Below the pieces are notes generated by a model. It saw only the letters and a program-made list of their open reading frames with translations. It had not been told where the DNA came from and did no database searches. A DNA stretch of 58,376 nt. Source: Nitrospirota bacterium (GTDB lineage: Bacteria > Nitrospinota_A > UBA7883 > JACRGQ01). The stretch is from positions 1 to 58,376 of the forward strand of contig JAJRYD010000010.1 of NCBI GenBank assembly GCA_024275955.1, read 5' to 3'. Below are positions 1 to 57,139 of this stretch, piece by piece; the first letter of the stretch is position 1; each line of letters begins with the position of its first letter. The position numbers were made by a program, and so were the translations under genes.

Positions 1-128
1 GACTGTAATTCCTCGTTTACCGCTTCCAGCACTATCGGAATCAGCATCTGGATAAGCGCGGCACGGCTGTCCACGTCACTTTCAATTCTACTATTGGCAT
101 CAATCTTCTTTCCGTTTACTCTGTCCAT
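1..128 (-). CDS. IS256-family (mutator) transposase, N-terminal part only
   Basis: An open frame of 42 codons starts at ATG 128 and runs off the left edge of the window. A strong Shine-Dalgarno sequence (GGGAGGT) lies 5 bases upstream of the ATG. The visible residues include RAALIQMLIPIVLEAVNEEL (about residues 22-41), which resembles from memory the N-terminal helical region of bacterial IS256/mutator transposases. The DDE catalytic core would lie outside the window. The 129-348 stretch would then hold the left end of the element, but I could not define a terminal inverted repeat there. A non-transposase helical protein remains possible. Confidence 0.55.
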   Translation of the reverse strand, partial: MDRVNGKKIDANSRIESDVDSRAALIQMLIPIVLEAVNEELQ

Positions 129-348: not shown

Positions 349-708
349 TTATAGCGATTCTATCGCCTCTTCGACACTATCAACAATATTTAAAACTTTA
401 TCCAGTTGAACGACTTTGAGGGTTTTTAATACATCCTCCCGCAAGCCTGTATAAATAATAAAAAGATTTTTCTTTGACAGTTGTTTTGTCAAGAATACGA
501 TTGTTCCGATTCCGTAAGAATCAATACGGGTTATTTGATTCATGCTAAAGATTATTCTTTTCCCGCTATGTATATGAAATATATTTTCAATATTTTTTTT
601 AAACGCCATATTGTATCCCATAGAAAACTCATTCGGGTTTTCAAACCTCAGGATTACATATTCTTTTTCCGATTTAATATCAATCATAATGTCGGCACAT
701 AGTCGCAT
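349..708 (-). CDS. STAS-domain protein (anti-sigma factor antagonist-like)
   Basis: A protein of about 119 residues that looks like one STAS domain, the fold of anti-sigma factor antagonists such as SpoIIAA/RsbV, which bind kinase-type anti-sigma factors. The motif IDSYGIGTIVFL matches the DSSGLG-type loop of the family. The second position, usually the phosphorylated serine, is Tyr here, so control by phosphorylation may be lost or changed. The frame extends upstream to a GTG at 765, but that codon lies inside a CRP-type operator. I therefore prefer ATG 708, with ATG 687 as an alternative; neither has a strong Shine-Dalgarno. It diverges from the CRP/FNR gene and shares its upstream region. 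No anti-sigma factor is adjacent, although a REC/HATPase gene of the RsbW type lies at 56.2 kb. Confidence 0.75.
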   Translation of the reverse strand: MRLCADIMIDIKSEKEYVILRFENPNEFSMGYNMAFKKNIENIFHIHSGKRIIFSMNQITRIDSYGIGTIVFLTKQLSKKNLFIIYTGLREDVLKTLKVVQLDKVLNIVDSVEEAIESL

Positions 709-725
709 TTCGACGTTTCTTTTTC

Positions 726-741
726 TGTGATAATAGTCACA
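726..741. promoter_or_regulatory. CRP-type operator, box 1 (TGTGA-N6-TCACA)
   Basis: TGTGATAATAGTCACA is a perfect 5-bp inverted repeat with a 6-bp spacer, the E. coli CRP consensus architecture. It lies 18 bp upstream of the preferred STAS start and 148 bp upstream of the CRP/FNR start. It is exactly 25 bp from the second box, so the two sites are within a few bases of the same helix face. Confidence 0.75.
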
Positions 742-750
742 AAATTTATA

Positions 751-766
751 TGTGATAATAATCACA
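751..766. promoter_or_regulatory. CRP-type operator, box 2 (TGTGA-N6-TCACA)
   Basis: TGTGATAATAATCACA is the second perfect box and differs from box 1 by one spacer base. The neighbouring regulator has the Arg-Glu-x3-Arg recognition-helix pattern that in E. coli CRP reads TGTGA, so it is the natural candidate to bind here. Confidence 0.75.
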
Positions 767-888
767 TTATTACTGATGTTGCCTATGATATAAGAGCATA
801 AGTTCTTGTGATTAATCTTGTGGGAGAGAGGGGGCGCTTCCCGCTGGCCGGGAAATGCTAATAAGCAGAGCGCTTAATCAAAGTATCA

Positions 889-1563
889 ATGGAATATGTA
901 AGCCTAAAAAATATCCCGCTTTTTTCAGGACTGGGCGGCAAAACAGGCCGGAAGCTGGTATCCATTGCCAATGAAAAGAGTTTCAAAAAGGGCGAGACGG
1001 TTTTTAACGTCTGGGATAGGGGCAGTACCCTGTTTTTCCTGCTATCCGGCTCGGTAAAGTTTTCACTTGTAGACGAAAGAGGCAGAGAGGTAATTTTAAA
1101 AATCCTTTATGGAGGAGATTTTTTCGGAGAGATGTCGCTTTTTAACGGCGGTTTCCGCTCTGCCAGCGTTGTCGCTATTGAAGAAAGCAGAGCATTAATA
1201 ATTCATCAAAAAGAATTTTACAGCCTGATAAAGCATCCAGAGATCGCGATGCAGATAGTGATAAACCTCAGCATGAGAATTCGAAAACTGGATGAGAAAG
1301 TTGCCAACCTTGCTCTTTCAGATTCAATAGGAAAAGTAGCCAGCCTGCTTCTTGAGCTGTATAAAGAGATAGGAGAGAAAAAAAACGGTGAGGCGTATTT
1401 TAAGACCAATCTGACACGTCAGGAAATGGCCAATATGATCGGCATAACAAGAGAGACGTTTATCCGCTGTCTTCATACTTTTCAGGAGCGTGGGCTGATA
1501 GCCGTTTCCGGTAAAAGAATAACGATAAAAAGAGAAGTAGATTTGAAACGCGAAATATCCTGA
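889..1563 (+). CDS. CRP/FNR-family transcriptional regulator
   Basis: A 224-residue protein with the usual CRP/FNR layout: an N-terminal cyclic-nucleotide-binding beta-barrel (about 8-125), a dimerisation helix (about 128-165) and a C-terminal winged helix (about 165-220). The barrel carries the phosphate-binding-cassette pattern FGEMSLF..GFRSASV. The recognition helix reads ITRETFIRCL, with R188, E189 and R193 at the spacing of E. coli CRP R180/E181/R185, which contact TGTGA. No FNR-type N-terminal Cys cluster is present, so it is not an oxygen-sensing FNR. The ligand is unknown. Two perfect TGTGA-N6-TCACA boxes lie upstream at 726-766, so autoregulation or control of the divergent STAS gene is likely. 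No clear Shine-Dalgarno precedes ATG 889. Confidence 0.9.
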   Translation: MEYVSLKNIPLFSGLGGKTGRKLVSIANEKSFKKGETVFNVWDRGSTLFFLLSGSVKFSLVDERGREVILKILYGGDFFGEMSLFNGGFRSASVVAIEESRALIIHQKEFYSLIKHPEIAMQIVINLSMRIRKLDEKVANLALSDSIGKVASLLLELYKEIGEKKNGEAYFKTNLTRQEMANMIGITRETFIRCLHTFQERGLIAVSGKRITIKREVDLKREIS

Positions 1564-56201: not shown

Positions 56202-57139
56202 TTGAATAAAAAACTTAAGGTTCTTCTAATCGAAGATAATTGGGCGGAACTTAAAATTTATCAAAAGATGCTAAGGGATGCCGGTTTTATGGTTGTTCCC
56301 GCGCGAAACGGTCAGGAGGCTATAGATATTCTTGACGAAGGCGATAAGCTTGATGCCATTGTGACAAACCTTTTTATGCCTAAGGTAGATGGCCGAGCTC
56401 TTGCTAAGTACAACTTCAAAAACCATCATCTTCCTTTCATAGTTTTGCCGAAAGAGCAAACTCTGAAACCGCCTTGGATATGCTCGGGTATGGCGTGAAG
56501 GATTTCATAATAAAACCGCTGATAAAAGAGACGTTCATCGAGGTTCTAAAAAGCGCGATTATGAGGCAGATATTCCATACGCACGGAATAGAGGAGCATG
56601 GCCGGCTTACCGGAAATGTCGGCTCTAAAACCATAAATGCCTGCGCCAATGAGCTTGCAATGATGCGCGGGTGGGTAGAGGGCGCGGTGGAGCCTGTTTT
56701 AGGCAGAGATGAATCTGCGAATTTCGCCAACAGCGTTAACGAATTTTTACAAAACTCGTTTGAGCATGGAAGCCTTGGAATAACTGAAGAGACCAAGACC
56801 GAGCTTTTGGAAGCAGATACATTCGACGAAGAACTCCACAAGCTTGAAGCTAACTGCAAGGCAAAAATAGACCTAAAAATTTCTGTGCTTGAAAACGAGA
56901 TTACCGCCAGAGTGACAGACGAAGGCAAAGGTTTTGATTATGAAAAGTACTTAAAGAAAACAGAAAAAGATATTTCTAACATGACATTACTGCCGAACGG
57001 CCGAGGGATATACATAGCAACATTGTATTTTGACTCGGTCAAATATTCCAAGGGGGGGGCCTCTGTCATTTTAAAGAAATCGCTGGCGGGAAAGGCTACT
57101 AGCAATAGTCCTTTTTCACTCCAAGTTTCTCAAGCATAA
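56202..57139 (+). pseudogene. Receiver-like plus RsbW-type HATPase gene, frameshifted
   Basis: Starts at TTG 56202 with a strong AGAGGAGGAG. The N-terminal part is receiver-like: KVLLIEDNWAELKIYQKML, but the phospho-acceptor position is Asn (VTNLFMPKVDG, N56). Around 56450-56465 the frame breaks. The first frame ends at 56498, while the second frame picks up with ANSETALDMLGYGVKDFIIKPL, the proper end of a receiver. A one-base indel explains it. The second half has an RsbW-like kinase fold: VNEFLQNSFEHGSLGI (N box), VTDEGKGFDYEKYL and NGRGIYIATLYFD. The last residues run into direct repeat B, so the true C-terminus may be lost. Role: possibly a partner-switching anti-sigma factor. Confidence 0.75.

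Follow-up and report, generated by a model that had tools for sequence, protein, structure and literature searches.

Twin CRP-type boxes between a Crp-family regulator gene and a divergent STAS gene in a Nitrospirota bacterium are probable tandem operators

The closest described case is CgrA of Rhodospirillum centenum, a cGMP-responsive CRP homolog that binds a 16-bp TGTGA-N6-TCACA site at its own operon; this site is also listed for the opposite-strand gene RC1_3784 (PMC4681086). Among the direct targets of CgrA are sigma factors and the anti-sigma gene chrR; its regulon is broad (28 ChIP peaks), and cgrA lies beside guanylyl cyclase subunit genes (PMC4681086). In CAP, the CRP of E. coli, cAMP contacts the C-helix pair T127/S128 (PMC10127613).

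We analyzed contig JAJRYD010000010.1 of the Nitrospirota bacterium assembly GCA_024275955.1 (58,376 nucleotides, hereafter the window). Two copies of the same box were found between a STAS gene and a Crp-family regulator gene. The locus presents the same kind of case as CgrA, with the STAS neighbor as its own feature; unlike cgrA, the regulator gene has no adjacent cyclase, and no other good boxes were seen in the genome. The features are as follows.

349 to 687, minus strand: STAS protein with a single domain; 112 aa if translation starts at the ATG at 687, 119 aa if at the ATG at 708
726 to 741, no strand: box 1, TGTGATAATAGTCACA, a perfect TGTGA-N6-TCACA palindrome
730 to 758, minus strand: candidate STAS promoter, TTATCA-17-TATTAT, a consensus match only
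751 to 766, no strand: box 2, TGTGATAATAATCACA, a perfect TGTGA-N6-TCACA, with the extended palindrome ATGTGATAATAATCACAT
761 to 789, plus strand: candidate regulator promoter, ATCACA-17-TATGAT, a weak consensus match only
889 to 1563, plus strand: Crp/Fnr-family regulator, 224 aa, with a cNMP-binding domain and a Crp helix-turn-helix

The initial annotation had reported two perfect boxes between positions 726 and 766, and inspection of the sequence verified both the coordinates and the intact half-sites. Both boxes retain the arms of the CRP operator (TGTGA-N6-TCACA), they are identical in 15 of 16 bases, and both are located upstream of both genes, inside the divergent intergenic region. The distance of 25 bp given earlier is correct for the box centers (733.5 and 758.5), not for the actual gap, which is 9 bp. 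In shuffled windows 0.03 boxes per window were expected by chance, and two boxes were reached in none of 100 shuffles; given the base composition of the 201 intergenic base pairs, the expectation of one box in them is 2e-4. The box pair is real and beyond chance.

A scan of the genome for the same box, which the initial annotation had suggested, returned these two as the only exact copies; there is no third exact TGTGA-N6-TCACA in the 2,452,406 bases of the whole genome. Sites with at most one mismatch number 30 genome-wide, including the two exact ones, as against 32 for the reversed control pattern, and nearly all of the one-mismatch sites are intragenic. A spacer-specific pattern (up to three mismatches) showed a mild excess of 44 versus 18 matches, counted by strand and with the self-matches of the boxes included; nearly all the matches examined were again intragenic. 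A global regulon of the CRP type was rejected on the comparison of the one-mismatch sites with the reversed control. Because exact sites occur only here, and the one-mismatch sites do not exceed the control and are mostly intragenic, the boxes look like a local operator pair. We conclude that the visible target is the STAS/regulator intergenic region only, in a pattern scan that weak sites would escape. Upstream of the genome's other STAS genes (four genes checked), no box with fewer than three mismatches was found.

The regulator contains the domains of the Crp/Fnr superfamily, with matches to PF00027 at 78.5 bits (cut-off 27.5) and to PF13545 at 64.5 bits (cut-off 27). With E. coli CRP the locus has in common the consensus site, the two-domain Crp-family architecture, and the residues that read the site. 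The alignment agrees with the earlier claim that R188, E189, and R193 are retained; these numbers are the protein's own, and the residues correspond to R180, E181, and R185 in E. coli (TRETFIRC aligned with SRETVGRI). The phosphate-binding cassette (FGE, R82-S83) is kept as FGEMSLF...RSA (FGEMSLFNGGFRSA). In contrast to E. coli CRP, the C-helix contacts T127/S128 are absent, with Leu-Asp in their place in the alignment, the score against the NCBIfam CRP equivalog PRK11753 is below the cut-off (116.4 bits versus 266), and the sites are local rather than global. Judged from its sequence, the protein belongs to the Crp family, with a DNA specificity like that of CRP and with altered C-helix ligand contacts. 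Encoded in the genome are 13 cNMP-binding domains; a class III cyclase domain is present in four proteins, two of which match it strongly. A cyclic-nucleotide signal, as proposed earlier, is plausible because the regulator keeps its phosphate cassette and there are two to four class III cyclases in the genome, though no more than plausible given the replacement of T127/S128.

We compared the regulator to 27 homologous regulators, which are mostly from Eremiobacterota, mostly contain a TRETVNR helix, and show about 33-39% identity to it. Within 250 bp upstream of their genes are five TGTGA-N6-TCACA sites with no more than one mismatch, versus an expectation of 0.22 derived from the DNA flanking these loci. 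The sites are located in four loci (L050, L061, L064, and L065), and L065 has two boxes that are 26 bp apart; 23 of the 27 homologs have no box at this threshold within 250 bp. When control motifs were tried (nine half-sites with five spacings each), only TGTGA-N6 and the overlapping GTGAC-N4 gave at least three sites upstream. For the homolog boxes the Poisson probability is about 4e-6; it becomes 7e-4 when a broader homolog set and 350-bp upstream regions are used. Both values are somewhat optimistic, as the loci are related. These results lend independent support to the prediction that regulators with the RE-x3-R contact residues bind TGTGA-N6-TCACA at their own genes. The Eremiobacterota regulators (RETVNR helix), at most 39% identical, share these residues with the regulator described here, and a box is likewise present upstream of the gene in four of the 27 homologs, in tandem in one. 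They differ from it in that most have no recognizable box; furthermore, no STAS neighbor was found in the flanking DNA examined for the homologous regulators. The nearest homolog (L004, 43% identical) belongs to another phylum, represented by one genome, and has no box upstream of its gene. A perfect TGTGACCGGGATCACA does occur at L004:1469-1484, where it overlaps the 3' end of the homolog's gene, between convergent genes.

The STAS protein matches PF01740 with 42-43 bits. Among its candidate starts the ATG at 687 is the best, since in the alignment the first residue of a paralog on contig C54 (34% identical) falls exactly on it; the ATG at 708 could also serve, and the GTG at 765, which gives the longest frame and lies inside box 2, is an unlikely start. 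With antagonists of the SpoIIAA/RsbV type the protein shares a single STAS domain and an Asp-Ser-x-Gly motif with a phosphorylatable serine (RIDSYGIG); we take its Asp-Ser-Tyr-Gly to be at the position of the SpoIIAA phospho-serine. It differs from them in scoring below the cut-offs of TIGR00377 (41.2 versus 53.45 bits) and of the SpoIIAA family TIGR02886 (29 versus 115), and in that no RsbW-like kinase or other anti-sigma partner adjoins the gene. HATPase_c_2 proteins exist elsewhere in the genome, the nearest above the cut-off within the window being at 56.7 kb. A role of the STAS protein in partner switching, to which the boxes had been linked, is plausible from the motif, while an adjacent anti-sigma partner is lacking.

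Elsewhere in the window, the frame at 56474-57139 (plus strand) encodes a HATPase_c_2 (RsbW-like) domain preceded by the apparent end of a receiver domain, and is possibly a partner-switching component on the same contig. The STAS paralog (L144, G000:C54:1-9000) is located downstream of a tandem array of three paralogs, each of which, by eye, apparently consists of a receiver-like part and a part with TPR-like repeats.

In the reading we favor, with a probability of roughly 0.72, the twin boxes are tandem operators through which the regulator acts on its own promoter and, most likely, on that of the divergent STAS gene as well. A ligand-bound dimer would read each TGTGA half-site through Arg188, Glu189, and Arg193, like E. 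coli CRP. The first hexamer of the candidate regulator promoter overlaps the right arm of box 2, and relative to this promoter the box is at about -38 to -42, a class-II-like position; by this geometry, occupancy of box 2 (about -41.5) would activate the regulator's own promoter. Both hexamers of the candidate STAS promoter are inside the boxes, so the bound regulator would block it, and box 1, which covers the -10 region, would bring about repression of the STAS gene, whose product would be an anti-sigma antagonist. The promoter consensus matches are weak (four found, 1.2 expected). Of the two targets named by the initial annotation, the regulator's recognition of the boxes and control of itself are well supported by the recognition-helix residues, the genome-unique boxes, and the presence of this box ahead of the genes of distant homologs with the RE-x3-R residues. 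The STAS gene is probably controlled by the regulator, as position and divergent geometry suggest; no other genome is known to keep both genes, and the homologs have no STAS neighbor in the flanking DNA examined.

We considered whether the boxes serve the regulator gene only, the STAS gene being a passive neighbor with its own or read-through transcription. Homologous regulators do carry the box without a STAS neighbor, and STAS control is argued from position. Nevertheless, we regard this alternative as unlikely: box 1 ends about 18 bp before the STAS start at ATG 708, or 39 bp before ATG 687, so near that the STAS promoter would almost certainly be contacted by regulator bound there, and two boxes fit two promoters. 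It is far less probable that the reader of the boxes is some other DNA-binding protein. A candidate would be the second Crp-type regulator of the same genome, on contig C3 (L031, G000:C3:7508-8158, minus strand), which also has a cNMP domain and a Crp-type helix-turn-helix. Its helix is SFEVAVR, with no Arg-Glu pair, and the box upstream of its gene is TATGA-N6-TCATA-like (one mismatch), not TGTGA. An exact TATGA-N6-TCATA is present upstream of class-level homologs (L016, L018, and L019) whose helix is SFEVAVR or SFEVVER, and this box, with its different code, likely serves conserved autoregulation. The box thus changes along with the helix, and this covariation speaks against confusion of one regulator with the other.

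The least credible alternative is that the palindromes are RNA hairpins (an attenuator, a terminator, or an RNA stability element) rather than operators. A 91-nt stretch on the STAS strand does fold better than its shuffles (z = -3.3); however, any DNA palindrome folds, and the z-score follows from two perfect inverted repeats. The stems and loops are A+T-rich, the terminator scan was empty at the boxes, and the exact CRP consensus lies beside a CRP-like gene. A hairpin or terminator was rejected, as the boxes have no terminator signature.

We also searched for the pair of genes in 60 relatives and in 24 genomes of the phylum (23 besides this one). No conserved CRP-STAS pair was present in either set, and neither contained a convincing ortholog of the regulator; the best regulator hits within the phylum are 25-32% identical, and those whose helix was read have helices of the C3 type or others. 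Nor was a STAS ortholog found there, the next best match being the genome's own paralog, followed by hits with E values of 4e-9 or worse. The G+C content is 31% around 401-800, with an A+T-rich intergenic region, and 31-46% over positions 1-1600 of the window, below the about 49% of the next kilobases; low G+C at the contig start is consistent with acquisition of the STAS/regulator pair. The frame at 3-128 (minus strand) is cut by the contig break, and its 42-aa fragment had no Pfam match. The pair looks like a lineage-specific insertion and was probably acquired. A further step is to view the locus as a horizontally acquired, self-contained cyclic-nucleotide switch, in which the regulator, with its ligand pocket altered, would act only on itself and on the divergent STAS antagonist via the twin operators, and a second messenger would be fed into partner switching via the transcription of one gene. 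We offer this reading tentatively and consider it rather doubtful.

The arrangement is real but fairly ordinary, and so far known from a single genome. CRP-like control of a STAS protein had been called unusual. Full-text searches of the open literature found no paper in which CRP directly controls STAS proteins or anti-sigma antagonists; control of sigma and anti-sigma genes, on the other hand, has a precedent in CgrA. The general picture is unchanged, because CgrA already links this box with self-regulation as well as with genes for sigma and anti-sigma factors. If our reading is correct, the locus would be a compact case of a CRP-type signal entering a STAS (partner-switching) pathway, and the operator code of E. 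coli CRP would be in use in a phylum whose more widely conserved Crp-type regulator has another box.
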